Shown here: positions 21,688 through 57,464 of the stretch, piece after piece | How the letters are laid out: every line of letters begins with the position of its first letter | Numbering within the stretch: position 1 is the stretch's first letter | DNA from: Talaromyces rugulosus | Taxonomy: Eukaryota; Ascomycota; Eurotiomycetes; Eurotiales; Trichocomaceae | Direction of reading: 5' to 3' | DNA: 64,000 nucleotides | Assembly (NCBI RefSeq): GCF_013368755.1 | Contig: NC_049564.1 | Coordinates: forward strand, 1,620,001 to 1,684,000 | Made by a program: the position numbers and the translations under genes | Notes under the pieces: generated by a model | Seen by the model: only the letters and a program-made list of their open reading frames with translations | What the model was told of the DNA's origin: nothing | Database searches by the model: none

Positions 21688-23916
21688 TTAGCCAAAGATA
21701 TTATCCATATGAAGTACATCTGTTGCTCCCATGCTTCCCAACATGGAGAAGAATTCCGAGCTCGGCGTCGGGAGCTCCTCAAACACACTTCCTTCACAAA
21801 AGTCCTCTCCTGGATCGACACTATTGCCCATGTCTTCCTTACGACCGATCAAGGGCGCTGACCGCTGAGAATGCGGCCTCTGGCTCGTTTCGACAACCTT
21901 CTCTAATACATGTAAGGTACCCCAGATATTCAAATCTGGGTCTTTGACGTAGTTCTGTGCGTCACTGAGGATATGAATGGCTGTTTCAAAGGGCTTGCTA
22001 CACAGTGGTCCATACTCGTCAGGACAGTGTGAGACGGCAAACATCATGAGAGACAGAGAGGCCAAAAGCAATTTGATCGTTATGGGCAGCACGAGAGGAC
22101 TGATTTCCCCAGCATCGACCATTTCCAAATGCAGATCGACCGATTTTGCAGCTGCGGCAACAAGATTATTATTCGATGTTGGGTTTGATATCAAGTCTCT
22201 TATTGAGCCGGATGTGCTGATCTGTGTGAGAATTTTGATATGGTGCACGCGAAGATGACAGAATCGTTTGAGTCCAGCTTGTAGCCATGATGGTGGGGCT
22301 ACTGTTGGTTCTAGAGACTTGAAATCGCTCGTCGGTATCTTGTCCACAAGCTTTTGTAGTTGGAAGTTGAGAAATTCAATCCTTTCTTCGTTGTTTTTGG
22401 ATAGAGATGACGGAGAGTTGACGACAGTCCATGTCTCGGAGAGATTTCTGTCTAAGGAGATCATGGTTGATATATAGGACTCATGTGGTTCCTGGACCCG
22501 GGGAAAATAATTGTTAGCCACAAGGTGGTAGCCGCGGGCACTCAAGTGCACTAATAGAGAGCCATACTATTGTGAGTGCAGAAATATTTATTTCTCTATC
22601 ATGAAGTGTCCACGGTAGGCCCGAATAGAAGCTACATTGCCTGTCCAGACGATAAACACAGGCTAGCAGGCGTTTCCAGTCGACAATTCGCCGTGGAAGC
22701 ACCCGAGAATCTTCAAAAAACCTTTCCCGATGTAGACCAAGTTCGAGGGACAGTTTGGCAGCTATTCCGGCTATTCGCCATGCTTTGACTGGTCTTCCTT
22801 TGAGGCCTAGATAAATTGACTGTGTGGGAGCCAGTGTTGTCCATTGGTCAGTGACGGGCGTGTGTGACTGGGGGGGGCGGACTGAGAATCTTACCAACAA
22901 TATTGCCATGACGATATCCTCAACTTGAGGCTTCTCTTGATCGAAACAAGAATCCACGGTCCACACCAACTGGCTTTCAAGATCAGACGCTAACGGGCTT
23001 TGACTGTCATCCCTGAGCAACAAAGCAATTGCCACGACCGCCTTCGTGACCTCCACATCGATTATATCCATGTTGAGGATGACTCCGTGATAATTATTCT
23101 TCAACGTTGAAAAGACATTACTAATAGCTTCATGGCCAAGGTCCAAGTTAACACAAGGATAGAAAGGGTAAACCTCGTCCTTAAATATTGTAAAAAACTG
23201 AGTGACCTTCTCGTGACCGAGTTCCAGCAAGGGTCGTTCAGCTTGCAGTAAGTTGATCAAAGCATCAGGAAATTTTAATTGGTCTTGAACGACCGGATGG
23301 GGGGTATCTTGGGAGTGTGGAGGAGATAACAGGCCCCTTTCCCTCATAGCATCTTGTGTGAGGCTCAAGGTGTGTCCGGGATCCGTAAGGGTGGGGGGCT
23401 TATTTGGCTGGGGTAGCTCGTCGTTCTCTTGTCTTCGTTGCAGACAGGAGGACCTGCGTGGAGGAGCGAGACCAAAGCGGCTCATGGATTGTTGCATCTG
23501 GTCAAAGATCCTGTTCATTCGTAGGACCGTGAATTCAGGGTCTTGATGGACCGGTTGGGGGTCGAAGGTCCTATTTGACGATTAGATTTGACGCATCAAC
23601 GACTGGAATGATAATCCTTCATATCCAGTGGGGGGTCATACTCAGCACCGTCAGGCTGGAACGGCTCGTTGTAGGTACATTGGCTATGGAGCTCCTCACA
23701 TCGGTTACAGGGTTGGTTACCACTACACTTGACCTTTCGGACCTTGCATAGTGAGCTACTCTAGAGTCAGCAGTCTAGCCATTTAGTTCTGCATAGGAAG
23801 GGGAAAACCAACCAGGCCATTTTTGCATACTTCTCCCTCTTTCGGGGCCGGGGCTCCCGAAGAGCATCCGGCGATCTCTTACCCCGAGAGGGAGCCGACG
23901 ATGTAGCAGATTTCAT
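21688..23916 (-). CDS. Zn2Cys6 transcription factor with fungal-specific TF domain
   Basis: The first exon encodes a basic leader (MKSATSSAPSRGKR, REPRPRKREKYAKMA) and the first Cys; after an intron the second gives SLCKVRKVKCSGNQPCNRCEELHSQC, completing Cx2Cx6Cx5Cx2Cx6C. The middle homology region includes VTQFFTIFKDEVYPFYPCVN, AWRIAGIAAKLSLELGLHRE and LLACVYRLDRQCSFYSGLPW, the hallmark of the fungal_trans domain. An intron near 22818-22900 removes a Pro-rich readthrough between ILLV and SIYLGLKGRP. The C-terminus is Ser/Thr/Glu-rich. Nuclear. It is the closest regulator to the palindrome cluster that starts at 25.1 kb (1.2 kb away, divergent), so it is a candidate regulator of that cluster, but its own promoter shows no TTCCGCGGAA site. 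Confidence 0.9.
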
Positions 23917-25137: not shown

Positions 25138-25242
25138 TTCCACGGAATTGCAATTGTTGAGATTTTTCTCGGCAAGTGAGTCTCATATGAGCCGCCGCGG
25201 CAATGTTCCGAGTCCGCCGGAATAGCCTCAAGTTCCGCGGAA
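25138..25242. promoter_or_regulatory. Upstream palindrome cluster of the S15 hydrolase gene
   Basis: Holds TTCCACGGAA at 25138-25147 (one mismatch), GCCGCGGC at 25194-25201, an inverted pair TTCCG-N7-CGGAA at 25206-25222 and a perfect TTCCGCGGAA at 25233-25242, 155 nt before the ATG at 25397. CCG/CGG inverted half-sites are the usual targets of Zn2Cys6 dimers; the core TCCGCGGA equals the octamer reported for Neurospora NIT4. Binding here is inferred. Confidence 0.7.
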
Positions 25243-25396
25243 GCTGAGATGCCTGTCTGATATCGAGACTGAAATGCTTCATGCTGAGTACAAATACATC
25301 GTCCATTTTAGAACAGCCTTATCGAGCTCGTTTCAGAGCTTTAGAACCTGCGTTTTATCTCGCGAAAGACCAGTCACCGACGTTACCTACCACATC

Positions 25397-27542
25397 ATGG
25401 TCGGACCAAAACTTGAGTTCGGGGGATTTCCTATCCCATGGACACCTACCAACCGACCTGAAGATGAAACAAATATGTATCCCTACAGAAAGCAGACTAG
25501 AAATACTAGAAAACTTCCTGTAGGCTGGAGATTTGCGGACGGTAGGCGTCCCATTCACCAGGAAACCATATTTGACGAAGTGGTCGAAATTCCGCTTAGA
25601 GACGGAGTCAAGGTTTGTCAAATCTCGGGGCCCTGTAAGAAGTATACTGATTTGATGTCCTCAGATCTATTGCGATATCTTCAGACCTGTCACAGATATT
25701 AAAATCCCGGCCATCTTGGCCGTGAGCCCATACGGTAAAAATGGACATGGTATGTTACTTATGACACCCTGCCGCGTCCGAACCAAATCTGATAGTGAAA
25801 TCACTTCAAGGATTCCGTATTTTCGACAATATTCCCTTCCGACTCGGATTACCGGAAAGCGCGACATCCGGTCTTGAGAAATTCGAAGGGTAAGAAAGTC
25901 CTGCTCGAGGCTACAAGACATGCTGACCATGAGATACAGGCCTGATCCCGCTGAGTGGTGTCCTCGTGGCTATGCAATCATCAACGTAGATATTCGGGGT
26001 ACCTGGGATAGTGAAGGTGACTTGTATATTGAGGGAAGCCAGATGGGTATGTTGCTGCTCAACAACCAAAGAAGACTTCGACCCAATTATTAACAACAGA
26101 AAGGTCTGGACGGTTATGATACCGTTGAATTCATCGCAGCTCAATCTTGGTGCAATGGTGCTGTTAGCATGTGCGGCAATTCCTGGCTGGCAACAGAGCA
26201 GTGGGCAACCGCCATCGAGAAACCGCCGTCGCTCAAATGCATAGCGCCCTTGGAAGGATTCACTGACAAGTATCGTGACTTGATCTGTCGTGGTGGTGTT
26301 CCAAAATACAATTTCGCTTCATTCATCTTTAATAAGACAATTCGCGGCCGAAACAGTCGAGAGGACATCGGCGAAGCGCTCAACAAATGGCCCCTTTTCA
26401 ACGGTTACTGGGAGGACAAAGTCTACGATACTAGCGGTCTGACGCTGCCAATATACGCCCTTGCTAGCTATTCTTCAGGAAATCATGGGGCTGGTACCGT
26501 GAGAGGCTGGAGCCAGGCCGCTTCAAAGGATAAATGGATCCGCTTCCACCCTACCCAAGAGTGGTTTGATCTTTACACCCCGAGGTACATCAATGACCTG
26601 CAACGGTTCTTCGATCGGTACCTAAAGAACATTGAAAACGGGTGGGAGGAGACTCCCAAGGCGAGAGTCTCCATTCTCACTTATGGGAATCGTTTCGAGC
26701 CTGTAATTTGAGATTGAACAAAGCATTTGAAAGACTACATCTAACACGGTTTGATAGGGACCTGTGTGGGACGTGCCATTTGCCAACTACCCGATTCCGT
26801 CGACCGAGTATCGCAAGCTCTATCTGCAGGACTCTGGAAAGCTGGACACTTCACCGCAAGTCCACGAGAACTTTGTCGCACATTACGCGGACACCTACCA
26901 AGCAAAGCCGTCTGAATTTCTATTGACCTTTGATAAGGCGACAACTCTAGTTGGCTATTCAAAGGCTGAACTTTGGATGTCTTGCAAAGATAAAGACGAC
27001 ATGGACGTCTTCGTGTCCATCCGCAAGCTAAGCAGAAGCGGCGAGGTGTTAGAACACATCAACGTCCCCTGGGAGAACCTGCCAGAAGGGGTCAACACCC
27101 AACACGATGTTCCCATGGCGCAGACTGTCAAGGTGAGCGGTTTAATTTGATTAGACATGCAACGGACATGCGTTGTCACGGCGTGCTGACTAGGTCTATG
27201 CTATAGTATACCGGGCCGACTGGCATTCTGCGAGCTTCGCATCGCGCCCAGGTTCCGGAACGAAGCACTGCCCTGATTCCCTACCACCCACATGACAAAG
27301 AGGAAAAGATAACCCCAGGCGAGATTGTGAAGCTTGAAATCTCTCTTTGGCCTATGGGTATCCATTTCGAAGCAGGAGATAACCTTCTGTTACGTATCCA
27401 AGGCTTCATTGATACGAGCTCCGATTTCCCCGACCATATCGATAAGAAACTGGACAACTTGAACGAAGGCCGGCATACAATCCACTTTGGTGGAAAGCAT
27501 GAGTCGAAGATCATCGTACCTGTTATTGCCCTACCAACGTAA
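25397..27542 (+). CDS. S15 family / CocE-NonD type hydrolase (X-Pro dipeptidyl-peptidase fold)
   Basis: Multi-exon gene. Early segments VVEIPLRDGVK and IYCDIFRPVTD, then IPAILAVSPYGKNGHG form the first strands of the alpha/beta hydrolase domain; RGYAIINVDIRGTWDSEGD is the conserved S15/CocE turn; the nucleophile elbow is MCGNSWLATEQW with Ser at roughly residue 195. A C-terminal jelly-roll (PepX_C-like) follows, with SEFLLTFDKATTLVGYSKAE, DMDVFVSIRKL, the RASHRAQ segment and ITPGEIVKLEISLWPMG. No signal peptide, so intracellular action is likely. Members hydrolyse esters or amides (cocaine esterase, glutaryl-7-ACA acylase) or X-Pro peptides; substrate unknown. Exon joins used: about 25615/25664, 25750/25811, 25890/25940, 26044/26099, 26690/26759 and 27133/27208. 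Preceded by the cluster palindrome, which ties it to the genes at 28-39 kb. Confidence 0.88.
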
Positions 27543-28239
27543 TAGGCGGCTGGTCACTTAGTGTGCCGACTTGAGATACGCGAACTGTATGCTCAAGACG
27601 GTCCGATACCTCAATCATTATACTATTTATTAGAAGACAAACATTAACCCAATTCAACATTTGGGTTAAGGAATTACAAAATCGGTTTATTTTCGTAATA
27701 TTAAAATTTGTCTAAAGAGAGTGGGTGTTATTTATGCCCGCATATGAGTCTTAAAATTTCGCAACAATTTTGAAAGCCACTTACATATGTAGCATGGACG
27801 CGTTAGATTTTGTATCATTGAGCTAATATGCAGAATATATGTTATTCGCGAGGTTTTGTCAAGCTAGCACCCACTGATCCCACATTGCATGCAAGGCCTC
27901 GATTAGTACATATAGAATCTCCCCAATATCCCAATTATACAAAATAATATCGATATATGCGAAAGAAGCACCCCAGTGCTGTCCATTTTACAATAAAGCT
28001 AATGCGTCCTACTATCCGCGGAGCTATATATGATACTAGTATTCTGTCATAAATCTCGGTTATTGTATTTACTACACAGGAAGAAAGTGCAAATATTAAG
28101 ATTGAATACAGTAAGCGAAGCAGAAGGACGGAATACTTCTTTTCTTCTCAGGTTTATCACAAGGGATTTCTGCGTGCAAAAGCCAAAATTATGGAGTTCC
28201 TTCTCTTTAGCAGACATTTGGGATACGCCTGCATAATGC
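27543..28239. other. Intergenic 3'-3' region, no gene recognised; one palindrome
   Basis: AT-rich, 0.7 kb between the S15 stop and the MFS stop. Contains TATCCGCGGAG around 28013-28023, with an intact TCCGCGGA core at 28015-28022, in a place where no promoter is expected. A 68-codon plus-strand ORF (28030-28236) follows it but looks like antisense to nothing known and has no start context. Confidence 0.5.
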
Positions 28240-30129
28240 CTACTCACCTGTCTCTCTGTCTAAATCCCAGTGAATACGTCGCATAACGCGCCATTTGAGA
28301 GTAGCATGACGAATCTGCTTACCCCAGATGTATAGGGGGATCCATAGCGCCAGGACGACGAAACTGAAGCCTGCCATGGCGCCAAATACTCCTGCATACC
28401 CATCTCGGTTCACCCACGGGTTTGCATAGAAGGACATAAGAAATGTGATAAAGGCTAGAAATTCGGTTGGTAAGCATTAGGGTCACTGGAAACCTTACCA
28501 GATGGGCAGATGACCTACATTTAAAAACGACCTGGCTGACAACAACCTCCCCGGAAATCGGCCGGTAGCAGTCGATTGTATAGACTACAGTAATACCTAT
28601 CGTTGCACTACTCCCGAACGAGACTGGAAATATGAGGTCAGCAAGCCCGTTCCATTCGACACATGCTGAATTAAAGGTCTTACACAGAAATATTCCTAAT
28701 GCAGGGACAATCCAATGAGTTTTGTAATTGATCCCCAGACCATAGAGAAGAAGTGATCCAGGGTAGGTAACCATAGCGATGCTCACGGCAGGAAGACGCA
28801 TCTCGGGCTCACGAACGCCACCATTCTTTGAAGTTGCACGGTTGGCGACCCAATCCGAGAAATAACCACCAAATGGTATGCCTAGTATGTTACCCACAAT
28901 ACCCGCTAGCCATACAAGTCCTAACTGCCAGACTGTGAAGCCATATACCTGTGAAAAAGCTGTTGCGCCTGTGGTGCTTAGCACAACGAAGATTCCGATT
29001 CCAATTCCAAACGAGACCGTGGACCAGAAGACTGGCGGTAAGAAAAGGATGAGCACAGGACGAAGGACAATTTTCCAAATGCTCTCATGGGTGAGAGGAG
29101 CTCTATTGAAGGCCATCCGCTGAAAGAAGGGTTTCTTGGGTGTGTTGGAAACCTCGATGTGCTCTACTTCAGCTGCATTGGAGACTTTCTCGTTTTCCAC
29201 TTGCTCTGTTCCACAGATATGCCTTTGATAAGCAGTCTCTGGCATGGTGAAAAAGATCAAGACCGTCGTGGCTAGTACGAGAGCCGCGCAAAGATAGTGA
29301 AACATTCTCCAGTTCTGCGAGATTGACATGACGCCCGAGATCAACAAGCCAAAAGCAGCACCCGTCGAGAGCGCAGCCGAGTACATCCTACGAAGCTATT
29401 TGTAAGTCTGGGACTGTCGCGGCAATAGGTGCATGGGTTTTAACATACGCGGTCATTTTGCCTCTTTCATGAAGGAAGAAGATGTCCGCGATCGTCATAG
29501 GAGCAACGCACTCGGCACTACCGGAAAACCAAGCTGCTATGATCCTCGAAGCTAGCAGACTACCATAAGAGGTGGCACGCGCCGACCAGATGCAGCAGAG
29601 TCCAAAAATGAGGAACGAGAAAGTGTATACCACACGCCGACCATACTTGATAGCTAGTGGAACCCACAAAAGGTTGCTCACGCCGGCCGACATCGAAGCC
29701 GTGGAAAAGAGTAAAGCGGTTTTGCTCACGGCGGATGAGAATGCTGCCATCGATGCTGGAGACAGCGTGCCAGGGTTATTGGGTTTGGGCAGATATACAC
29801 CAAAGAGGTCGATGGCTATCTCAACCAAAACTGCTCCAGGCCCACCTGCGAAAAAGTTGATCCAGGTCAACGCCACGCAAGTTAGGAAGGCAACGTATAT
29901 TTTAAATGCCTTCGACCTGTGGTTGAGAACTTGGAGTTAACATTGGGTGTATGCTGAAGCCTAGGGGCGCGTCAAAGTGCAAAACGACCTACCAATTAAG
30001 AGGGTCGTTGGGATCGGTCGAGGGCTGGGGCACGAGGAGCGTTTCACCAGTGACTTCATCTTGGTCGGATGTGACCAAGCGTTTCCGTGGGATGATGGCG
30101 ATGAGTGATGGCGGGGCTTTCAAGGTCAT
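28240..30129 (-). CDS. MFS transporter, fungal DHA-like
   Basis: Start MTLKAPPSLIAIIPRKR at 30129, a cytosolic tail containing DPNDPLNW, the common sequence just before TM1 in fungal drug:H+ antiporter-like MFS proteins. Then CVALTWINFFAGG (TM1), SKTALLFSTASMSAGVSNLLWVP (TM2), KYGRRVVYTFSF (loop 2-3 GRR motif), ASRIIAAWFSGSAE (TM4), GLLISGVMS and NWRMFHYLCA (TM5-6), a long central loop, and six more helices, ending IHWDLDRETGE. Short introns near 29390-29450 and 28440-28520 and one after codon 47. The last codons could instead splice at ACAG/GTGAGT into a further exon; I kept the plain stop. Its promoter (30130-30734) is shared with the carotenoid-oxygenase gene and carries two cluster palindromes, so it is the likely importer or exporter of that pathway. 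Confidence 0.9.
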
Positions 30130-30510
30130 TTACATGATGAAGCATGGTTCACGTTGCTCGTCCAGGTGCTGAATAAATAGATGAGCATTAAGACAAGGCA
30201 AGAGTGGTACAGCAAGCAGGTATGTATATGTATTTGTTCTTAGAATTTTGGGGATGTGAGTGTCTTGCGAGAGGAGTTTCCTCCCTTTGACCATTAAATG
30301 ATTCGTAGAATGTACTTTCCGTGTGAGACATTCAAGCGTCATAATAGCAAAAATTCATTATCAAATACCGTCGTGTTTGCCATTCTTGGACATCCACTAA
30401 CCAATAGATTCTGGAGTAAGACGGGGGCTTCGAATCCATGACAAGGTGAGAAAGTGGCTTGGACAGGGCCTTGTCAACGTGAGTGTTCCCAATTTCGACC
30501 TTGAGGAGAA

Positions 30511-30520
30511 TTCCGCGGAA
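30511..30520. promoter_or_regulatory. Cluster palindrome, divergent MFS/carotenoid oxygenase promoter (site 1)
   Basis: Perfect TTCCGCGGAA, 215 nt before the oxygenase ATG and 382 nt before the MFS ATG on the other strand. Candidate dimeric Zn2Cys6 site (inference). Confidence 0.75.
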
Positions 30521-30545
30521 TGATTACCCTCCAACCGAAGTTGCT

Positions 30546-30555
30546 TTCCGCGGCT
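30546..30555. promoter_or_regulatory. Cluster palindrome variant (site 2)
   Basis: TTCCGCGGCT, 26 nt downstream of site 1. The 14 nt GCTTTCCGCGGCTC occurs again, unchanged, in the P450 promoter at 32986. A TATATAA box follows at 30643-30649, about 90 nt before the oxygenase ATG. Confidence 0.7.
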
Positions 30556-30734
30556 CCAGATGTCTGCAACTGTGACGGCCAGCAGAGTGGGATTGGCTGC
30601 ATTGAGGTAATTATGGACAGATATCTTACGCGGGGTGTCTGGTATATAACGAAGCTTAAACCGTTGTACACCAAACCCCGCATTTTCTATACTTGTCCAT
30701 ATATCGGTATTTTTAAAGACCACACTTGAACGCA

Positions 30735-32354
30735 ATGGCAGCTCTAGGCCCAGAAGCCGCACAGGCCGGACTCATTGTACCATCCGAAAAGAGCCAGCAT
30801 GCAAAGCATTTCGGGCTCGCATCGCCATGGGAACATTACTACCATCCTACCGATACTGCTCCTCAAGGTCGCTTTGAATGCGAGATGGACGAGCTAGTCG
30901 TATTTGGTGACATCCCCACGGAGATCAGCGGTACCTGGTATCGGATGCTCGTCGATCCTCATTTTTGCCCGCAAGTAGGAACCCCTTTCGTCGACGGGGA
31001 TGGGCACGTTTGTGCCTTTCGAATCCAAAACGGCAAGATCTCTATGAAAATTAAATATATCCACACTGAAAGATGGCTACTGGAGCGTAAGGCTGGTCGT
31101 CGCCTTTTCGGTCGCTACCGAAACCCTTACGACATTCACCCATGTGTGCGGTTTGCGAATGACAGCACTGGAAATACCAACATCATTTACTGGGGTGGGA
31201 ATCTTCTCGCGTTGGCTGAAAGAGGACTTCCATGGGCGATGGATCCGGACACCCTTGAAACAAGAGGCGCGGATCCATACGGTGGTCAGGTTGCTGCGAT
31301 GACCTTTACGGCTCATCCCAAAGTTGATCCTCACAAGAATGAGCTCGTCACTTGGAGTTACTCTGCCAAGGGTTTAAGCACACCGGACATTTGCACCTAC
31401 TCGATTAATCCCAATGGGCGTATCTCCAATGAACACTGGTTTAAGCAGGATAAGCCTGGGTGGCCGCACGATGGCTGGATTACCGAACATTGGATCATCC
31501 TTTCCAACATGCCATTCGGCGTAAACACGGATGAGGTAATGAAAGCTGGGGGTGACTACTGGAGATTCATGCCTGATCAACTCTCGGAGTTTCTGGTCAC
31601 TCCACGCTATGCAAACGCCCCGAATCATCCGGACTGGAAGCCGGGTGAGTTCCGGAAGTACACCGCTCCCCACGGTCTGATCATCCACAGCGGCAACGCG
31701 TGGGAAGAAGAAGGTGGAATTTTGAAGCTTGAAAGCCACTTTGTCACCTTCAATGTCTTTGACTTCTTCAACCCGAAAGAGTACGAGGGTCCTAGTGGCA
31801 AACCCAGCGGTGATTGGAAACGTTGGACCATCGATCTTGCCAAGCCTGATGGAACTGCCCTGCCACCACCTGACACATTGCTAGATGGCATCTTTGACTT
31901 TCCCATCTTCGACGAGCGCAAGACCGGTTACAAGACCAAGATCGTCTATCTGACCGCTATGATCGCCCCAGAAGGAGAGGAAAGACCCCGTTTCAACGCA
32001 ATCGTCAAGTTGAATACGGAGACGGGCGAGAAGTCAATTTTTCATGCAGCAAAAGACGGAAGTGTTGCGGAGCCTGCATATATCCCTCGAGGTCCTGACT
32101 GTGAAGAAGGCGATGGTTGGGTCATATTTTACTTGGAGCGAGATTCGTCGCCCAAGGGAGAATTGGCCATCCTCGACACCAATGACTTCTCAAAACCGGT
32201 GGCTATTACGCAGTTGCCTTTTCAAACACGCAACCAGGTCCATGGGAATTGGGTTCCGAATCCCCATCCTGATACGCCTTTGCCAATGTTGACGGGTCCT
32301 ATTAAAGATGTGGTGCCCAGTACCAAGCACTCCCAGCTGAATAGGCTTCCATAG
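30735..32354 (+). CDS. Carotenoid cleavage / lignostilbene dioxygenase family protein
   Basis: Single exon, 539 residues, non-haem iron seven-blade propeller oxygenase (RPE65/CCD/CAO-1 family). The four iron-binding histidines are visible: TAHPK (H194), WPHDGW (H245), IIHSGNAWEEEG (H318) and, near the C-terminus, NQVHGNW. The GDGHVCAFRI segment near residue 90 and ADPYGGQVAAMTFTAHP are also family-typical. No signal peptide or membrane anchor, so cytosolic. The family splits C=C bonds of carotenoids or of stilbenes/phenylpropenes (resveratrol cleavage by Neurospora CAO-1). The lack of any carotenoid gene nearby and the presence of a P450 and a ThDP enzyme favour a stilbene- or phenylpropanoid-like substrate, by inference. 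The start at 30735 is the first ATG; GC content and codon use are higher than in flanking DNA. Confidence 0.93.
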   Translation: MAALGPEAAQAGLIVPSEKSQHAKHFGLASPWEHYYHPTDTAPQGRFECEMDELVVFGDIPTEISGTWYRMLVDPHFCPQVGTPFVDGDGHVCAFRIQNGKISMKIKYIHTERWLLERKAGRRLFGRYRNPYDIHPCVRFANDSTGNTNIIYWGGNLLALAERGLPWAMDPDTLETRGADPYGGQVAAMTFTAHPKVDPHKNELVTWSYSAKGLSTPDICTYSINPNGRISNEHWFKQDKPGWPHDGWITEHWIILSNMPFGVNTDEVMKAGGDYWRFMPDQLSEFLVTPRYANAPNHPDWKPGEFRKYTAPHGLIIHSGNAWEEEGGILKLESHFVTFNVFDFFNPKEYEGPSGKPSGDWKRWTIDLAKPDGTALPPPDTLLDGIFDFPIFDERKTGYKTKIVYLTAMIAPEGEERPRFNAIVKLNTETGEKSIFHAAKDGSVAEPAYIPRGPDCEEGDGWVIFYLERDSSPKGELAILDTNDFSKPVAITQLPFQTRNQVHGNWVPNPHPDTPLPMLTGPIKDVVPSTKHSQLNRLP

Positions 32355-32980
32355 ATTGCGAAATATACCTTTCTTTCTCACGGTGATTATTGATAAATAC
32401 CAAACGTAGGGTAAATTATCGGCTCCTATCGAGAAAGGAAGCCGAGCCATCTCCGGTCTACCAAACTGGATACACGGAGTAGTGTGAAGCTCCCTCAAGG
32501 GCAGCGATCTCAAAACTGCTACAATATGTAGAACAATTAAACCTACTTATGCTAAATACTCACTTTCACGGTGACTACTTTTATGTGAATACAGAAAGTT
32601 CAAAATTTCTGACACAACACGGCGTTCTTGGGAAAGCTGTCAAGATCGATGTCAAGGGATGACAAGGCTACGGCTCTTCTAAGAGCAAATATTTGACGTT
32701 AAATCAAGAATGTAATTGATTTTGAACTGAGAAAAACGGTCCAACAAGAAAGCTTGACGCGAGATTAAGGAAACTCCAGTCTAAAATCTATTCAGCTGGC
32801 CAGTCCGGCCATGAAGCCATCTCCATGTATCTGACAAGAAACACCTGCATATTAATTTCATCAAGGTGGGAGTTCGAGATTGGTGAATAGACATTAGTGA
32901 ATAGGCCGACTATCAATGTTGTGCAAAACCGAGCCCCTCAAGGCGGAGCTCTCTGTTTCCGATGTCCAAGTTTCCAAAGC
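32355..32980. other. Intergenic, no gene recognised
   Basis: 0.6 kb between the oxygenase stop and the P450 promoter sites. No supported ORF; likely 3' UTR and upstream promoter sequence. Confidence 0.5.
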
Positions 32981-32987
32981 TGGTGCT

Positions 32988-33049
32988 TTCCGCGGCTCGT
33001 TCCGTAGATGGAGATCCTCCTTCCAAGATTCATCAGTCTCGCCGCGGAA
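32988..33049. promoter_or_regulatory. Two palindrome variants in the P450 promoter
   Basis: TTCCGCGGCT at 32988-32997 and CGCCGCGGAA at 33040-33049, 178 and 117 nt before the ATG at 33166. Spacing between centres is about 52 nt. Same family as the perfect sites at 25233, 30511 and 37995. Confidence 0.65.
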
Positions 33050-33165
33050 TTGTCGGAAATGATTTGTTGGTGGAAGAGTGTAAGTAATGAACTGATAATT
33101 AAGATAATCCTATTTCTATTATGTTCTATCTTACAAACTTCGACTGGCGCTGAGGTCTTCGCAAT

Positions 33166-34856
33166 ATGATTTCTCAATTTGCATACCTTCAATACGATGT
33201 TTCGATGCTTATCACAGCAGCAAGCATCGTCTTTATTCTGAGATATCTATCCGCAGCTCTCTTTAGCCCTTTGCATGATGTCCAAGGTCCAACACTCGCG
33301 CGGTACACTCGTCTATGGGAGGTGTACAAGAACTGGCAAGGCCAATTGGAGCACGTTACAGTCGCTTTTCATAAACAATATGGTAGTCTGATTGACTAAA
33401 TATGGATGTTTATATGCTAAATTTCGACAGGTTCCATTGTCCGGCTAGCACCAAACCGTTATAGCATCAGCGACCCGACAGCAATTCGTACCATTTACGG
33501 TACAGGCTCGAAGTTCAGCAAATCCGATTATTATACTCCCTTTGGCGCGCCATTGGACCACAAGGATGTCTTCTCGGAAACAAGCAATGAAAAGCATGCA
33601 TCGGAACGCAGGAAGATCTCCAATATGTACGCCATGAGCTCTCTGGTGTCCTATGAGCCATTCGTGGACAAAGTAAATGGCGTTTTCATGGCCGCGCTGG
33701 CCGACCATGCTCAGCACCGGAGGGCGTTTGATTTGTTTACCTGGATGCAGTTCTATGCATTTGATGTCATTGGTGAGATTACCATAGGTCGGTCATTTGG
33801 TCTGCTCGAAGCTGGTCACGACAAGGATGGACTTCTGCATGCTGTTCATGTCGGTTCGATCAGCTACGGTTCCTCGGTAGGACTAATCCCCGAGATTCAT
33901 CAATTATATCTCTGGTTCCAGAAAGTCGTACCGATAAATAGCCACTGGAAAATTACGCAACGAGTTATATTGAAGGAGATAAGTGCTAGATTGCAGGGCG
34001 TCAGTACTACCGATCGCAAGGACTTCCTAGCAAAGTGCATCGAATTGAGCAAAGCTGGAAAGTTAGATCAGTCCACGATCAATAACGTTCTTGGTACAAA
34101 CATCGGCGCTGGGTCTGACACAACTGGAATCAGCATGTGCGCTGTCATATACTTCCTCATGAAGCATCCGAATTGCTTGCAGAAGCTCCGTGATGAAATT
34201 GAGATGGCTGATAGGCAAGGAAATCTCTCTAGCCCTGTTACTTTCCAAGAAGCTCAGAGGCTTCCATACTTGCAAGCTACCATTAAGGAAGCCTTGAGGC
34301 TGCATGCGGCGGTTGACCAGATTCTCAGCAGAGTGGTTCCTGATGGTGGCGCACAGATTGCTGGTAGACACTTCCCACAAGGTGTAAGTTCCAAGCAATT
34401 CGGCAATATGGCTTGCCTTCTTCGGAGACAGCTACTTATCTTAGAATTTTTGACAGGCCGTGGTGGGCGTGAATGCATGGGTGATCCATAACGATGAAAG
34501 CATCTGGGGCAAAGATGTGCACGAGTTTCGACCCGAGCGTTGGCTCGTTGATAAAGAACAGCTTTCCTTCTTGGAGCAAAATTACTTAGCAGTAAGTCAA
34601 TTCTCTTTAATTTTCGACCTTTTCAAAGGATTATATCGAATTGAACTCCTGCTAATAAAATCTTTAGTTTGGTGCCGGTTCAAGAACATGCATCGGCAAG
34701 AATATCTCACTTCTTGAGATGACAAAGCTTTTACCCCAGATTGTGCGGCAGTTTGACTTTATCCCTGCAGGCGACAGTCAGTGGACTACCAGTAGTGGCT
34801 GGTTTGTCAAGCAGAGTATCCAAGTTAAAGTCATTAACAGAGGACGTGAGATCTAA
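33166..34856 (+). CDS. Cytochrome P450 monooxygenase, pisatin-demethylase-like
   Basis: Starts MISQFAYLQYDVSMLITAAS with an N-terminal membrane helix (ER anchor), then the Pro-containing hinge and FSPLHDVQGPTLARYTRLW. I-helix GAGSDTTGIS, K-helix ETLR-equivalent KEALR, PERW, and haem loop FGAGSRTCIGKNISLLEM with the axial Cys. Exon joins: YG/SIVRLAPN (intron about 33382-33430), FPQG/AVVGVNAW (about 34384-34456) and NYLA/FGAG (about 34591-34667), each restoring a P450 motif. The FGAGSRTCIGKN..LLEM pattern and length resemble fungal CYP57/pisatin demethylase relatives, enzymes that O-demethylate plant phenolics. Needs an NADPH-P450 reductase from elsewhere. Its promoter carries two cluster palindromes. 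Confidence 0.92.
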
Positions 34857-35115
34857 ATGTTCGGTAGCTCTGAAATGGGCCATGGGGTTTAGTGTGGCAG
34901 ACAACGACTGAAAACAGGATCTTTTCTTGGCGCCTGAGGATAAACCATAGATTGATTGCCCAAAAGACTGAAAGCTGTTATTATATTTCAATATGTTCAA
35001 CTTGTTTTTCTTGGAATATCGTATTTGTCAGGGACACAAAGTGTATTCCAACCACTTGCCGTTCGGTGGAGCTGGTGGTAGTTTGGAATTCCATACCATA
35101 CTCCTGCAATTCCGG

Positions 35116-35125
35116 CTCCGCGGAA
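35116..35125. promoter_or_regulatory. Cluster palindrome upstream of the small ORF
   Basis: CTCCGCGGAA (one mismatch; core TCCGCGGA intact), 146 nt before the ATG at 35271, a distance like that in the other cluster promoters. It is downstream of the P450 stop and downstream of the ThDP gene's 3' end, so the small ORF is the only gene it could serve proximally. Confidence 0.6.
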
Positions 35126-35270
35126 CCCGATAATGACTTCGAGATGTAATTCGATATAGAGTTTGGGAGAAAATTAAAGTGAATTTTATGAATTAGACTC
35201 CTCTATAAGGATATTGATAGCCTAATTACCCCCACCGCATGCGCTGCGCTGCCGTCTCACACATCAAACC

Positions 35271-35525
35271 ATGGCTGATACCACACCCAAAGCCTGCGAC
35301 CCCAAAGGCCAAATTATTAGCGGGATAAAAGGAAGCCAAGAACATGATCAAAAGTGCGTATTACCAGTAGAAGGGATTATGGCTGTTTTACTGATCTTTC
35401 GGTCTAGAAACAAAACTCTCATCCATTTCAACAGTAGCGCTATGGACTATAGAAGTATCATCGACAAACTTTTCGAAGATCATAAGAGCCGGCTTTCTTC
35501 CCATCCAGGAACAAAGTCTAAATAG
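35271..35525 (+). CDS. Small hypothetical protein in the palindrome cluster
   Basis: 84 codons read straight (MADTTPKACDPKGQIISG ... HPGTKSK), or 66 if a 54-nt GT..AG stretch (about 35356-35409, GTGCGT to TCTAG with a CTGAT branch-like sequence) is an intron; both keep the frame. No domain, signal peptide or Cys pattern recognised. ATG in good context (ACCATGG). Support comes from position: a cluster palindrome 146 nt upstream and 200 nt of clear space before the ThDP gene. The product after splicing is hydrophilic and Lys/Ser-rich. Confidence 0.45.
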   Translation: MADTTPKACDPKGQIISGIKGSQEHDQKCVLPVEGIMAVLLIFRSRNKTLIHFNSSAMDYRSIIDKLFEDHKSRLSSHPGTKSK

Positions 35526-35722
35526 AGAGAGACGCTGCAAGAAGAGAGAATTGTACGATCATAGGGCTCCACCTTGAGGAGACCATCAAAGGGTTAGTTA
35601 GGGCTACTAGACAGGAGTGGTCCATGAAATAGTAATAAATCCGAACTCGAGAGTCATATATATTCTCTTGATATTTAAATAATCCAACGTGTGAAAAGAA
35701 GTGAGCGGTAATCCAAATATGC

Positions 35723-37702
35723 CTACAACATTGAACGCTTCTTTATGATCCGCGCGTCCAACAAAGCAGACCGGCCGCTTTGTACAGCATCCACGGCCTC
35801 GGGCAACCTTGCTACCAACTCATCAACAGTGCTGGCTCGTCCCGCCCAACACTTACCCCCCGACGAGCCTTGTGCAATAGTCGCGTAATCAGGGTTTGGA
35901 TCGAATGATATGTTAAGTTCCTCGTTACTAACTTCGGATCCTAGGCCGTTAGGATGAACAAGAAGCATAGAGTTCCGAGGTGCGTTCCAACCTATATGTG
36001 CAGTCTCTGTCAGCCTCGCGCTCGTCTCGTTTTAATGCGAGTAACGATCAAATTTTGGTTGCCTCGACTTACCATCATTGTTGAGCACTATAGTCAGAAC
36101 TGGAATCTCATACCTCTGTGCGACCCAATATACACTGGTGGGGATGGAGAAGTGAAAGCAGCCGTCCCCGATGATCTGGCATACAAATTTGCCTTTTCCT
36201 CCGTGAATACAGTCCGTAGCCATTTTGATACCAAGGGCTGCACCGCCCGACCAACCAAGTCCACCTGCGCCCGAGCTATAGACACTTCCAGGCAAGGTTG
36301 CCTGCAATTGATCGGCCACGGTGAAAGTGTTTGTGACGGCTTCAATGACCCAGATCGTATCAATCGGACATGCCTTCCGGAGACTCGAAATGAGAAAGCC
36401 ACATCCCAACGAGCCGTCTGGGTTCGGCTCGGCCAGTGCAGATATGGCGCTTAACTTCTTCTTGTAGGACACCTGAAGGGCCGACCATCGGTCTTTGTAG
36501 TGCTCGTTATTTGCCCTAATTTCATGTGAAAGGTCGGTTTTCAAGTGCTGCACAATTTGGTCTAGGGCAAACTTGGTATTCACACGACAACGCAGGATCG
36601 CGTCGATATAGAAAACAGGCATCTGATCTTTCAAAGGGTCGACATCGAAATGAAAGATTCTAGCGTCGTCGGCGGGCTTGCACTGCGTGTTGATCCACGG
36701 CACATCGCAATCGACGACGAGTATCACATCGGCCGTGCGGATGGCCTCATCCGATCCATATCTCACGCTCAGCCACCCAGGGTGATCGGCAGGGAAGCTG
36801 AGATCCGAACCTTGAGTGTCGAGCACTCGCAGGCCCTTGATAAGGTTAGCCAACTCAATGAGCAATGGTACTACGGCAGTATCACGTCCGCTATAGCCCG
36901 TGACGACAAGAGGCTCCCTAGCAGATACCAAGGCCGAAGCAACCAGATTCAGCTGCGTCGGTATCAAGCCACCAAGCTCCACGGGACTCCAGAACTCCTG
37001 TCGAATCTCATACGGCTTAATAACCTCTTCCATAACCTCTCGGGTCCCCTGTAAGTAGACTGGACCTCGAGGCTTGCTTTTCGCAAAACTCAAGGCTCGG
37101 TTCACCATCTGTTTGATGTTCTGCCCCTTCTTCAGTTCGGCAGTATAGCGACAGTATTGTGATACGATTGCTTTCTGGTCTGGGACATCTTGTAGCCAGT
37201 GGATAAACTCGGTTCTGCTGCCGCGGTATTCACCCTCCAGAGTACATGGGGAGAGACCAGCAAAGATGAACACAGGCGCGCGGCCTACACTGGCATTGTG
37301 TACGGCACAGCCGAGTGCTTGAGTGCCAACGTCAACGTGCACAATGACGGCTTGAGGTTCTCCCGTGACTCGAGCATAACCATCTGCCATAGATAGCGCA
37401 ACCATCTCACATGGGCAAGTGATGAATTTAGGGAACCTGTCCGGCCTCTCCCACTGGCCTTTAACCATCGCTTCCATGATGGCGGGGTGATCAGACCCTA
37501 GATTTACGAAGCAATACCGTACGCCGGCCTGGAGAAAAAAACATTAGTATTTCTTCAAGGACGAATGAGTTTCCTGCAATGCACTGGGGTAAAACTTACG
37601 TCCCACAGCGCCTCGAACATGGCTGATGAGGCTGTATACTCCCTATAGTAATAATTAGCGCGTTGTCAACTATAGTTAAAGGAACCTCGACTTCTCTTAC
37701 AT
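35723..37702 (-). CDS. Thiamine-diphosphate-dependent enzyme (acetolactate synthase / benzoylformate decarboxylase-like)
   Basis: Pyr domain with GSDHPAIMEA and the cofactor-activating Glu in CPCEMVALSMADGYAR; central domain with LRVLDTQGSDLSFPADHPG; PP domain with GAGGLGWSGGAALG and the Mg/ThDP motif GDG..27..NNDGWN. Ends KKRSML. The last intron splits NNDG/WN. The start codon appears to be split by an intron: AT (37702-37701), intron 37643-37700 with a CTAAT branch, then G, giving MEYTASSAMFEALWDAG; the next possible ATG is at 37620. Members carry out decarboxylation, carboligation or acyl-CoA lyase chemistry on 2-oxo acids and aldehydes. Beside an oxygenase that may release an aryl aldehyde, a benzaldehyde-lyase or benzoylformate-decarboxylase-like role is possible. 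Divergent from the hydrolase at 38163, with a perfect palindrome between them. Confidence 0.9.
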
Positions 37703-37994
37703 TATGCGCGGAAGATAGAACCAGGTCTATGAAACTCAAGTCGGAAACTGTTTTTTCGCTAAAGGTAATTCTATCACACAAATTTTGCGTATGTACGTGA
37801 TTTAGAAGGGGGGCCTTACGAGGACTTTTACAAACGACATAAGGTACCTTCACATAGCACATAGGGTCTCGGATCGCGACGACCGCAATCAGGTTTGTCA
37901 TATTCCCTACAGAGTTACCATAAAATTCAATATTCACTGGCACAAATTAACGAGTTTGTCGTCCAACTCTTGCCGGAAACTTCCAGCGAGGTGG

Positions 37995-38004
37995 TTCCGC
38001 GGAA
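37995..38004. promoter_or_regulatory. Cluster palindrome, divergent ThDP enzyme/hydrolase promoter
   Basis: Perfect TTCCGCGGAA, 159 nt before the hydrolase ATG and about 290 nt before the ThDP start. Third perfect copy in the window. Confidence 0.75.
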
Positions 38005-38162: not shown

Positions 38163-39234
38163 ATGGCTAGCGTCGACTACGTGTTCAAGACCGTCAATTA
38201 TGGCGCCCAAACGGTAAATCTGACAGCCACCGTGCATTTGCCCAAATGCGCTACATCAGTAAAGGCAATTGGTAAGTCCCTACAAGCAAGATGGCACCAT
38301 CTATAAAAATACCATCCTGATACCAAATATGAAGCATTATATTTCCACGGAGGTGGCTACATCGTCGGCGGCCGGGCAATGCTACCAGCTACACATATCG
38401 AAGCACTGAACGAAAGTGGTTTCATCGCTGTATCTTCAGACTATCGTCTCGGACCTACCATCTCCGTACTGGACGGTCCAGTCAGTGATTCAGTAGCTGC
38501 GTACGAGTGGGCGCAAAATGTGCTTCCCACACTGCTGGAGAACGAGCATGGTATCCTAGTGGATGGGGAAAATATCGTCACCCTCGGCCACTCTTGTGGT
38601 GGGGGAATTGCGCTCTTGATGGTAAGTTGCAAGTTCTGCAAGTCAGGAGGAACTGGTCATGAAGATGAAGCTGATCTTATGCAATTAGGCTTCTCGCCCT
38701 AACCCACCCAAGGCCATTCTCGATCTATTCGGATTCAAATACCTCCGTGATCCATTCTATCACACCAGCACGAGCACTCAACCCCAATCTAACGCACCGG
38801 CTCTGCCTTCAGCTGAATTCATCAACCAGGTCTTTAATGAGATTCCTCCGCCAACCGCGGCACGCCCTCCATTTGGTCCTAATGGACTCGATCTAAGCAC
38901 GCCGCGCCAGGCCTATCTCGTCACTTCTGTTAGGAAAGGGACCCAATTCGATGCAATCATCGCCGGGGATGATTATGATCGGGTGGATCCGGAGAAACTA
39001 TTGGAGAGTCCAAATTTCCCTCCAACATGTTTTGTTCAGGGGACGGCGGATGTGGTTGTCGATGCGAAATTTTCTCAACGGGCTCATGCGGAGTTACAGA
39101 AAAATGGAATACCCAGTGAGCTGTATCTTGCTGAAGGTATGGCTCACGGATTTGATGCTAGGTTGAAGCGTGATGATGTGGCCTTCTCGTCTATCCAGAA
39201 AGGCGTGGAATTCCTGGCGCAATATGTCGGCTAA
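38163..39234 (+). CDS. Alpha/beta hydrolase fold-3 (HSL-type) esterase
   Basis: Three exons (introns about 38271-38333 and 38621-38688). Segments in order: MASVDYVFKTVNYG, ALYFHGGGYIVGG (HGGG oxyanion hole), SSDYRLGP, VTLGHSCGGGIALLM (nucleophile Ser in GHSCGG), FVQGTADVVVD (acid) and YLAEGMAHGFDA (His). About 315 residues, no signal peptide. This is the HGGG carboxylesterase family that hydrolyses small esters or lactones. Shares its promoter and the TTCCGCGGAA site with the ThDP gene, so I place it in the same pathway as the right-hand cluster boundary. Confidence 0.9.
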
Positions 39235-48397: not shown

Positions 48398-51300
48398 TTA
48401 AATTCCTTCCGCCGCTTGGCTCCAGTTGTAAACACTTCCACGAGGTAAGAATTCTGTTCCTGTGGTACCAGCAACCTTTATCTCGTTCGTACCATTGGCG
48501 ATTGGCGAGCCCCAGCCCCCACCTCCAGGTCTGGTCGGCTAAGTCAGTATTCTGAGAGAAAAAAGGAGAAAGGACTGGATAATCTAGTGGAAATTGGGGG
48601 ATAATTACGTGTGGATAACCACCCTTTCGCCTGCAGACAGATTGAGCTCCATCTTGCCGCCAATATTTATAGTTCGTGTTGTGCCATCAGCTTCATTTTT
48701 GATGTACAAGTTCTTCCCTGCTGCTCCCGAATGGCCACCAGCCATGCCGTATGGCCCTAAAACACGTCTCTCGCTGAGCATATTTACTTGCAGAGGAATT
48801 CGGAACTCAATGTCCCGAATGCACCCGTCACCACCATTGAATTTGCCATGTCCACCAGACCCAGTCCGAAGAGTCCACCGACGGAGAATGACGGGATAAC
48901 GGAGTTCGTATACTTCTGGATCTGCACACCTCGTGTTGCTCATGTGCACATGTACTCCAGATGTTCCCGCCCAGGTTGGTCCGGCACCGTGGCCTCCGGC
49001 AATGGTTTCAATATATCCAAATCCAGGAATCTCCTTACCGGATGAATCTTTGCCTCCTTTCCCAAACCCAAACACATTGACACAGCCCTGGGAAGCAGCT
49101 ATGGCACCAAAAGCGCCCAAGATTAAATCCGCAATACGCTGCGACGTGACACTGTTGCCAGCGCAGACAGCCGCGTATGGAGACGGGTTAAGTATGGTGC
49201 CTTCAGGGATAATAATCTCAATAGGGGCTAAGCAGCCTTGGTTGAGGGGAATGTCCATATTTATGAGGCATCTGAGACAATAGATGACTGCCGAGTAGGT
49301 GATGGCCTTTGGAGTGTTAAGACAGTTGAGGGTCTCCTCGGATGTGCCCGTGAAATCAAATACTGCAGTACCATCTTCGCCATTAAGACGGATTTCCAGC
49401 TTTAAAATGGACCCATCATCTAGACAGTCTTCAAAAGCAAGGACAGGAGTTTTCCTCGACTTTGCCAGATTGCGAATGAAGGTTCGCACAGCAACTTCGG
49501 CATTTTCAGCAATGGCGTTCATGTAAAGGTGAACTATGGGCAAAGAAAACTCCTGGATCAACCTGTCGATTAAATTAGCCCCCTTTTGGTTGGCAGCAAT
49601 AGCAGCGCGCATGTCTGATAGATTTTCTTTGTAATTGCGTGTTCCACTACAGCCATCGTACTTCGCCGGCTCATCCCAGAGGAATTTCCTAGTCCGCTCC
49701 TCATCGAAACGTCCGCCACTGACAACCTTATAGCTCTCCACAGCTGCACCTTCTTGATACAAATACTTGCTATTAGAAGGCATCGAACCGGGGCTAATAC
49801 CTCCTACATCGGAGTGATGACCACGAGAGGCGACCCAGAAAATAATTTCTTTTTCATCTTTATCCCAAATAGGAGTCATGATCGTGATGTCTGGAAGATG
49901 TACTCCTCCAGCTATTGGGTGATTGCTGCAGAGGACGTCGCCTGGCTTTAGTTGCGATCGGTACTTATCATTTTGGTATCTGACAGCATATTCCATTGAA
50001 CCAAGATGGACCGGCACGTGCGGTGCATTGGCAACTAAACGGCCATTGGGTGAGAAGAGAGCACATGAGAAATCAAGGCGTTCTTTGATGTTGACCGACA
50101 CAGCTGTCTTTTGAAAAGTCCGTCCCATCTGCTCTGCAATAGAGATAAATCTATGTCCAAAAATGGAGAGGCTGATTGGGTCCACTGTCGTTTCGCTCAA
50201 AGTGCGAGATTGGGATTGAGATGATGGCAGCTCCAGAATGACGTGGCGGCTGAGCACTGTTGCTTTCACTAAAGGCTCAACGATAATGGTTTGGGTATTG
50301 TCGATGATTATTGCTGGCCCTTTGACGTTACAGCCGGGATTTAATGACTCAAGTCGATAAATAGGTGTCTCATCCCAACCAGTTTGAGCAAAGTAGACCG
50401 ACGATCGGCCATCCTCACTGCTCTTGGTGACATCATGTTGATTTATGGAACAAAGCTCCTTATATGGAGACTCGTTAATTTTGCCAGTTGATTTTCCAAT
50501 GCCTCGGACCCGAATATCATCGATTAACACTTTTTTCTCCGGGAATGTGAAGGAGTATTCACGGTAGTGTTGCCGTGTGAACTCAGCAAGGTAATCGCCA
50601 TCCTCGGGTTGAAGGACCATGAGGTTATTATCAGTACCTTGATAACGAAGATTAAGATAGACCTCATGCTTGACTTGGCTTTCTGAGAAGCCATCGGTCT
50701 GAAACTCCCGGTCAACCTCGGCCTTGAGCTCTTCGATAACGGGTTGGACGACGTCGGTAGATGTGTAGAAACCGGATGCTGGTCTCTGAGCTTCGTGAAC
50801 AGTGTCGGCAAGCACCATGCCATAAGCAGAGAGAATGGACGAATATCGATGGATAATTACTTTCTGAATGGAAAGTGATGCAGCAATAGCACAAGCATGT
50901 TGACCTCCGGCACCACCGAAGCAAGCCAAATGGTGAGCAGATGTGGCGAAGCCACGAGATTCAGTCAAGGCTCGGATAGGTTTAGCCATGGTTTCATTAG
51001 CGACATCAATAAATCCCATGGCAACTTCCTCTGCTGTTTTCTTTTGGCCAGTCTCCTCACTAATCTGCTTAGCCAGCTCGGCAAACTTCGTCCTAGTGAT
51101 ATCTACGTCAAAAGGCTCCTTTTCGCTCTTGCCGAAGATCTTTGGGAAGTATTCTGGTAATAGGCGGCCTGTAAATGCGTTGGCATCACTAATAGTCAAA
51201 GGACCCCCTTTGCGGTAGCAGGCTGGGCCTGGATGTGCACCAGCTGAATCAGGGCCTACAGCGAATAAACCGTGCCTCCAGAAGAGGATGCTGCCACCTC

Positions 51301-52614: not shown

Positions 52615-52985
52615 GGTGATCGGTGACAATAGGTGATAAAAAGGGGTGGTTTGAAGTTGTTACCCAAGGTAAATTACCGAGCCTATCCCAAATATAATTG
52701 CAGCCAAGCCATAAAGGTAACTACTCTATTATATACTTAGTTGCCCAAGGCTATGACCTATACTCAACGGACCAAAGGCGCATGTACAAAAGACCAGATA
52801 GGGATGATAAAAGAGGGGAAGCCCGTATCCACCCCTATCAAAGCGGCCAAGCCGGGGGATCCTGAAGCACCCGACAAGAAGGCGGAAGCGACAGCATTGA
52901 GAAAGCTTATAATTCGATAGCAATATGCAAGAATAAGTTTTCGGTCTCAACTCCAAATGTTTGAACATTGGCGTGCGGGGAAGCT

Positions 52986-53024
52986 CGATAAGGTAAATCG
53001 GATAAGGTGAGGGGATAAGATAAA
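52986..53024. promoter_or_regulatory. GATA-site array in the divergent 5-oxoprolinase/FAOX promoter
   Basis: Four GATA cores in 38 nt on the plus strand: CGATAAG at 52986, GGATAAG at 53000, GGATAAG at 53013 and AGATAAA at 53018. The first and last match the HGATAR consensus of the nitrogen regulator AreA/NIT2; the other two match only GATA. More GATA cores lie at about 52633, 52782 and 52801. Direct sequence match; regulation is inferred. Confidence 0.6.
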
Positions 53025-53394
53025 GTCTCCATCTCGCCTGGACTTGCACCGGAAGTCAAGCAACTAATAGTTCACGCCCAACGCGGCCAACGCATTTCTA
53101 CCCTCAGTGGGCCTGTTATCGGCCATCAATAGTGGATGTTAGGTGAGAATTATGTGATATCACCGTTAATAACTTCATTTTTGGTTCCTATTATAGTTTC
53201 GGTCCGATCTATATAGTACCATGAGGGGTCTTTTATCCCCCGTATTTCTTCCTTAGCTCTCTAAATCCGACTTCACTAAAGCTCTCTCGATTTCCTAAGA
53301 TCGAAAGAGCGTTGAACTAGTGATCAGTAATAGCATACCGTGACAGCAACTTTCATTCAGGAAGAAAAAATCGCATCTTTTGTTCGCCAGCACC

Positions 53395-57189: not shown

Positions 57190-57464
57190 TTTGAACATGC
57201 AAATTAAAATGTGGCTCACGAGGGATGCTAGGAGGGTGGACTTGCTTTTTTTGTTCTTGCGATGATGGCAATAATGAAACTAATAATTCAACAAAAAAAA
57301 TTTATATTTATTCTGTTTGACTTTTAAGATTTCAAGACAAGTAAATTCTATAGACTGTCTATGCTTCTGTAAACTTTTTACTTGAATTGACTATTGGGGG
57401 CCAGGCTTCCAGACTGATGGTCAAGCAAGAAGAGGCATCACAGACTGGCTCTATCTCTCAGTAG

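Follow-up and report, generated by a model that had tools for sequence, protein, structure and literature searches.

Two kinds of Zn2Cys6 binding site described in fungi come closest to the element considered here. The octamer TCCGCGGA is the classical Pdr1/Pdr3 element, the pleiotropic drug response element (PDRE; PMC11111045, PMC5539612), and TCCACGGA is a variant of the Pdr1 element in C. glabrata (PMC8211738), while the exact decamer TTCCGCGGAA was reported as the motif from seven yeast PDR3 target genes (PMC3376862, Table 2). The nitrate regulator NirA has the consensus CTCCGHGG, and more than 800 A. nidulans genes have NirA sites within 1 kb upstream, with about 80 being nitrate-induced (PMC3020322). 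Among catabolic gene clusters, stilbene dioxygenase has an established place as a core gene in the fungal degradative type (PMC10735191, citing Gluck-Thaler and Slot 2018). Here we analyzed a 64-kb stretch of Talaromyces rugulosus DNA, called the window (C4:1620001-1684000, in a genome of 35,758,560 bases and six contigs), in which copies of TTCCGCGGAA are concentrated at the promoters of a cluster of metabolic genes that adjoins a gene for a Zn2Cys6 factor. The palindrome reads TTCCG|CGGAA, two CGGAA halves set back to back with zero spacer.

Palindromic sites at the cluster promoters

The initial annotation had listed eight perfect or imperfect copies of the palindrome upstream of the cluster genes, and all eight coordinates were correct. 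They are given here together with a pair of CCGCGG cores in the first promoter.

25138-25147, TTCCACGGAA, one mismatch, containing the C. glabrata Pdr1 element TCCACGGA (at 25139)
25195-25240, paired CCGCGG sites in the promoter of the S15 hydrolase, with TCCGCCGGAA (CGG halves 1 nt apart) in between
25233-25242, TTCCGCGGAA, perfect, 164 nt 5' of the assumed S15 ATG
30511-30520, TTCCGCGGAA, perfect, between the divergent MFS and oxygenase genes
30546-30555, TTCCGCGGCT, two mismatches, inside the 14-mer GCTTTCCGCGGCTC
32988-32997, TTCCGCGGCT, two mismatches, cytochrome P450 promoter, in the second copy of GCTTTCCGCGGCTC
33040-33049, CGCCGCGGAA, two mismatches, P450 promoter
35116-35125, CTCCGCGGAA, one mismatch, the sole one of the seven places described below that fits the NirA consensus CTCCGHGG
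37995-38004, TTCCGCGGAA, perfect, between the divergent genes for the thiamine-diphosphate (ThDP) enzyme and the alpha/beta hydrolase

The genes that these sites accompany are listed next. Models other than those of the oxygenase and the adjacent factor were read by hand from open frames.

25397-27542, plus strand, S15/CocE-type hydrolase (Pfam Peptidase_S15 and PepX_C; introns not worked out)
28240-30129, minus strand, major facilitator superfamily (MFS) transporter (Pfam; start codon 30129; introns not worked out)
30735-32354, plus strand, carotenoid-oxygenase/lignostilbene-dioxygenase-type enzyme of the RPE65 family (539 aa, one exon; Pfam and PDB relatives)
33166-34856, plus strand, cytochrome P450, intron-containing (Pfam)
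35271-35525, plus strand, small open frame (84 codons, or 66 without a possible in-frame 54-nt intron)
35723-37641, minus strand, ThDP enzyme, acetolactate-synthase/benzoylformate-decarboxylase-like (Pfam and homologs; first exon uncertain)
38163-39234, plus strand, alpha/beta hydrolase, intron-containing (Pfam Abhydrolase_3 in the first large frame)

A search with TTCCGCGG found seven places between 25233 and 38004, at each of which the CCGCGG core is whole by construction. Ten of the 14 flanks of these cores are TT/AA, the remainder, read in the same orientation, being AG twice, CG and CT. The motif is better described as a CCGCGG core flanked by TT/AA on one or both sides than as the decamer. 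One TT/AA flank is absent at four of the seven places, and CGGAATTG recurs at 25143, 33045 and, reversed, 35107, as would suit co-regulation through single CGGAA half-sites with the palindrome being incidental. With both CGG halves present at spacing 0 in all seven places (by construction), we regard such half-site regulation as extremely improbable.

By the gene models, all seven places are intergenic, in a region that is about 73% genic (chance 1e-4). Counted from the site start to the plus-strand ATG, the distances are 164 nt for the S15 hydrolase (an alternative ATG at about 25275 is still 3' of the site), 224 and 189 nt for the oxygenase, 178 and 126 nt for the P450, 155 nt for the small open frame and 168 nt for the alpha/beta hydrolase. 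Distances of mostly 115-220 nt had been proposed initially; by the gene models they are 126-224 nt for these five plus-strand genes, but about 355 nt (ThDP enzyme) and 382-417 nt (MFS transporter) for the divergent minus-strand genes. Sites in the divergent regions may also serve these two genes, from the opposite direction.

In an unbiased count over eight promoters, CCGCGGAA was the top 8-mer, being found in five of them at 300 bp and in seven at 450 bp, with the oxygenase/MFS and hydrolase/ThDP pairs counting their shared sites twice; the best 8-mer outside the motif at 300 bp, AAAATTCA, was found in four promoters. The S15 promoter carries three further, weaker forms, namely TTCCACGGAA, a bare CCGCGG and TCCGCCGGAA. 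Alignment of the five forward promoters was unconvincing (mean column identity 44%, many gaps), and the sites are thus unlike remnants of one duplication. The 14-mer GCTTTCCGCGGCTC has two copies genome-wide, at 30543-30556 in the oxygenase promoter and 32985-32998 in the P450 promoter, and may represent either a longer form of the site or a short segment that was copied.

Clustering of the sites in the genome

Genome-wide, TTCCGCGGAA occurs 36 times, compared with 52 times for the reversed palindrome as a control, which corresponds to about 0.064 copies per 64 kb and agrees with the value of about 0.06 first expected. Three perfect copies (25233, 30511 and 37995) fall inside 12.8 kb, and for 36 points scattered at random the probability of any three lying that close is 0.0026. 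TTCCGCGG is found 388 and 410 times on the two strands (534 and 496 for the reversed control), or at 762 distinct places with each of the 36 palindromes taken as one. The window holds eight of these places, and seven of the eight lie in 25233-38004, where 0.27 would be expected; any seven places inside 12,763 bp of the genome have P = 0.0002 (20,000 simulations). Pairs of the form CCGCGG-N20-50-CCGCGG number 55 genome-wide and three in the cluster (25195, 30513 and 32990). Three such pairs inside 7.9 kb have P = 0.0035, with no other such stretch among the 50 of 55 pairs listed. Sites overlap between these three tests, which are not independent of each other, and their P values carry the choice of a motif that had been picked after the window had been seen. 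The concentration of the motif at the cluster promoters, as originally claimed, is borne out both by the TTCCGCGG places and by the lead of CCGCGGAA among promoter 8-mers, and its simplest reading would be a co-regulated regulon.

Accidental clustering of a CpG-rich word, through chance or composition, would fit the counts that tolerate mismatches. Over the whole window, decamers with 0-2 mismatches number 34 against 25.85 expected (standard deviation 5.07), which is not above chance (9 of 100 shuffles reach 34), and TCCGCGGA with at most one mismatch numbers 19 against 18.54, again the chance level. Mismatch counts over the window were not used as evidence for this reason; 17 of the 34 decamer matches fall in the cluster, which makes up 20% of the window. 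The signal consists of the exact CCGCGG-core copies and their placement. For TTCCGCGG, genome totals are counts and positions were listed for the first 4.61 Mb of C1 (97 places). There the background is Poisson-like (mean 0.268 and variance 0.285 per 12.8-kb bin over the first 4.6 Mb), and the maximum in any 12.8-kb stretch among the matches listed is three, compared with seven in the cluster. The GC content of the cluster region, 0.45-0.49, also lies inside the window range. We consider an origin by chance or composition very unlikely.

Around 17 of the 33 decamers outside the window, ten-kb stretches contained three further TTCCGCGG against about 3.6 expected, which is the background rate; for the other 16, the surroundings covered were 2 kb. 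A perfect palindrome at C2:2577316 (L023:5001) lies directly upstream of a frame that encodes Zn_clus and Fungal_trans domains, and a further TTCCGCGG is found 2.2 kb from it. An Rfam scan gave no match.

An adjacent Zn2Cys6 factor

The initial annotation named no regulator gene; one for a Zn2Cys6 factor adjoins the cluster.

21688-23916, minus strand, Zn2Cys6 factor, candidate regulator (5 exons, 649 aa; CSLCKVRKVKCSGNQPCNRCEELHSQC and Fungal_trans; Pfam PF00172 and PF04082)

The factor combines the canonical zinc domain C-x2-C-x6-C-x5-C-x2-C-x6-C with Fungal_trans, and the best PDB matches of its N-terminus are the zinc clusters of PUT3 and GAL4. The splice choice made at the zinc domain matches relatives with the same residues, for example P0121. 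Relatives of the factor are 85-31% identical. Twenty related proteins were found; for 15, E was below 1e-89 and coverage 45-100%. The named proteins closest to the factor and to the ThDP enzyme come mostly from Penicillium, and also from Talaromyces and Aspergillus. In three of 11 aligned relatives (P0125, P0127 and P0131), the usual first zinc cysteine position is absent in the deposited models. Another relative, P0133 from Aspergillus karnatakaensis, is a protein of 969 aa in which a P450 is joined to a factor relative without the first zinc cysteine, and is probably a merged model of two neighbouring genes. Synteny of the P450 with this species is not claimed, as the fused P450 part is only 28% identical to the P450 of the window.

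A dedicated Zn2Cys6 dimer had been suggested as the binder of the palindrome. A Zn2Cys6 dimer would indeed be the natural one, but the TT..AA ends, which had been taken as distinctive, are no sign of a dedicated factor because yeast PDR3 targets have the same decamer (PMC3376862). The adjacent factor is the best candidate for the regulator of the cluster.

Linkage in other species

Linkage was assessed from coincidences in the size of the longest contig among relatives of the factor, the oxygenase and the ThDP enzyme. The rows compared were 15 of 20 for the factor, 38 of the 120 listed for the ThDP enzyme and 42 of the 120 listed for the oxygenase (the best 120 of 527 relatives with E <= 0.001). 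The oxygenase rows comprised the first 40 plus two from further down, one of which, P0052, was chosen on account of its already known match. Shared contigs numbered five for factor and ThDP enzyme, three for factor and oxygenase, and seven for oxygenase and ThDP enzyme, compared with one coincidence in 100 offsets in an offset control. The factor and the ThDP enzyme share a contig in P. cataractarum, P. brasilianum, P. cf. viridicatum, T. proteolyticus and Coniochaeta sp. 2T2.1, the factor and the oxygenase in A. karnatakaensis and Coniochaeta, and the oxygenase and the ThDP enzyme on five contigs of 13-58 kb and in Coniochaeta. Linkage closer than a common contig is given only by the P. cataractarum locus tags _011834 (factor) and _011839 (ThDP enzyme), which are five apart, and by the contigs of 293.8 kb in P. 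brasilianum and 67.6 kb in A. karnatakaensis. Identifiers at the linked loci are N7496_011834-011839 (P. cataractarum), PEBR_04798 (P. brasilianum, on the 293.8-kb contig), BGW36DRAFT_368177 (T. proteolyticus) and GE09DRAFT_1085775 (Coniochaeta sp. 2T2.1). Comparison of 48 further oxygenase rows with the 15 factor rows gave no extra shared contig. At the same-contig level, the factor keeps its linkage to pathway genes in those species, as is looked for in a Zn2Cys6 pathway regulator. The factor and the ThDP enzyme seem to form a stable core, with the oxygenase added in some lineages.

Cluster genes and putative pathway

The oxygenase aligns over nearly its full length (E about 1e-84) with the Neurospora-type CAO1 and the lignostilbene dioxygenases of the PDB (5u8x, 6n1y and 9g88), which are only distant homologs of it; the four His-containing motifs aligned with these relatives are TFTAHPK, HD, H..NA.E and HGNW. 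The closest relatives carry the names carotenoid oxygenase, carotenoid cleavage dioxygenase and isoeugenol monooxygenase, names not traceable to tests. No oxygenase relatives were found in viral and prokaryote contigs, and the genome holds three paralogous loci for the oxygenase and three further loci for the ThDP enzyme. In searches of PDB sequences, the P450 fragment was without a match at E 1e-10, as was the ThDP frame at E 1e-20. The small open frame at 35271-35525 had no match in Pfam, through which alone its relatives were sought, and may encode a small protein of the cluster or not be a gene. Judging from these gene families, the putative role of the cluster is probably phenolic, stilbene or phenylpropene catabolism.

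Elsewhere in the window, a second metabolic-looking group (48605-62146) comprises a hydantoinase/oxoprolinase, a flavin adenine dinucleotide-dependent oxidoreductase, an MFS protein, an L-PSP-like protein, a pyridoxal phosphate enzyme and a Fungal_trans_2 protein, and contains no TTCCGCGG site.

A candidate pathway-specific regulon

We consider it likely that the sites act as operator for a pathway-specific regulon under the adjacent Zn2Cys6 factor. In the proposed mechanism, an activator encoded at 21688-23916 (minus strand) would bind, as a dimer, the two spacerless CGGAA halves (TTCCG|CGGAA), and at weaker sites one good half with the CCGCGG core would suffice. The inducer would probably be a plant phenylpropanoid, a stilbene or a metabolite thereof, and the MFS transporter, the oxygenase, the P450, the ThDP enzyme and the two hydrolases would be induced together for uptake, cleavage and hydrolysis. 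If true, the locus would offer a testable pairing of regulator and operator for a kind of fungal catabolic cluster that is poorly understood, and could supply promoters and a sensor for a plant phenolic. A PDRE-type element would then also not have to signify drug response in a filamentous fungus. A broader proposal, tentative and in our estimate rather unlikely, is that a Zn2Cys6 lineage unrelated to Pdr1 or NirA arrived independently at the spacer-less everted CGGAA element. With its own cis code, this lineage would travel patchily, together with a ThDP/oxygenase module for phenolic cleavage, from Eurotiales to Coniochaeta and Fusarium, and would then form a portable regulon, complete in itself, for plant stilbenes or phenylpropenes.

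Several observations weigh against a regulon driven by the adjacent factor, the chance-level mismatch counts given above among them. The promoter of the factor itself has no CCGCGGAA within 450 bp, the nearest site being about 1.2 kb off. The decamer is also no promoter mark genome-wide, in that 21 of the 33 decamers found beyond the window are inside open frames at least 150 aa long; by this rule the copy at 25233 also falls in an in-frame upstream extension of the S15 gene (frame 25226-25702). In four of the five species in which the factor and the ThDP enzyme share a contig, that contig measures 3.9-5.3 Mb, so that only same-contig linkage is shown in those four, with the P. cataractarum tags adding closeness. 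The contigs shared by factor and ThDP enzyme in the four Penicillium and Talaromyces species are the longest for none of the 120 listed oxygenase relatives, and the factor is therefore not tied to the oxygenase everywhere. Furthermore, everted CGG cores are common to several Zn2Cys6 families, and the excess of NirA sites over nitrate-induced genes is, in our analysis, a warning against equating a motif with a function.

The missing site in the factor promoter would likewise fit functional sites that are bound by a Zn2Cys6 factor from another locus, either a xenobiotic regulator resembling Pdr1 or a general regulator for phenolics, with the adjacent factor binding something else. The identity of TCCGCGGA with the PDRE, of TCCACGGA with the C. 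glabrata form and of the decamer with the PDR3-target motif points the same way, and the P450, the transporter and the hydrolases resemble genes for foreign-compound handling. A broad drug-response factor should, however, mark many promoters, whereas most decamers outside the window lie in open frames as described, and ten frames scanned beside eight of the 12 remaining decamers included one MFS transporter. A distant Pdr1-like or general regulator is in our view unlikely, and we prefer a regulon under the adjacent factor.

Comparison with known regulators and clusters

The cluster resembles PDRE systems in its octamer and decamer, in having several copies in some promoters, in a Zn2Cys6 protein as the presumed binder and in genes suited to foreign compounds. 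TCCGCGGA is found at 25234, 30512, 35117 and 37996, and the PDRE, either as this octamer or as TCCGTGGA/TCCACGGA, is present in the promoters of the putative targets, with the exception of the P450 promoter, which has no full octamer: the site at 30546 and both P450 sites are short of one flank. The systems differ in that the sites here serve one linked, catabolic-looking cluster with an MFS transporter, whereas the yeast targets are ABC drug pumps.

With the sites of NirA and NIT4 the palindrome shares an everted CGG core without a spacer, and the core TCCGCGGA is the octamer reported for Neurospora NIT4. The niiA-niaD intergenic region of the same genome (C5, L049:1274) carries CTCCGCGGAA, identical to the site at 35116, so NirA-type factors can meet the same core, and NirA and the cluster factor may share sites. 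If the sites belonged to NirA/NIT4, the cluster would be wired to the nitrogen source. This we judge highly improbable, given that CTCCGHGG fits only one of the seven places (35116, on either strand), that no nitrate assimilation family was found among the cluster frames scanned with Pfam (the likely niaD/niiA pair being on contig C5), and that a factor gene lies next to the cluster.

Among described gene clusters, the gentisate cluster of A. fumigatus, Afu4g01480-01550, is similar in combining a stilbene-dioxygenase-type gene (sdoG) with a C6 factor (ctfG) and an MFS gene, and in its spotty distribution across fungi (PMC3914699). Its salicylate hydroxylase, gentisate dioxygenase, fumarylpyruvate hydrolase and aldehyde dehydrogenase (PMC3914699) are particular to it, and the cluster in the window instead has a P450, a ThDP enzyme, and S15 and alpha/beta hydrolases. 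The Pfam matches of the cluster frames scanned were to S15, PepX_C, MFS, RPE65, p450, TPP enzyme and alpha/beta-hydrolase families, with no gentisate 1,2-dioxygenase, salicylate hydroxylase or fumarylpyruvate hydrolase among them. A literature search, with most subscription journals beyond reach, found no description of this combination of cluster and regulon. Each ingredient is already known. By homology, a stilbene-dioxygenase-type core gene stands with linked catabolic genes, as in the fungal degradative clusters that have such an enzyme as their catabolic core (PMC10735191), and the proposed regulon would follow a familiar pattern of one cluster, one Zn2Cys6 factor and one CGG-repeat site.

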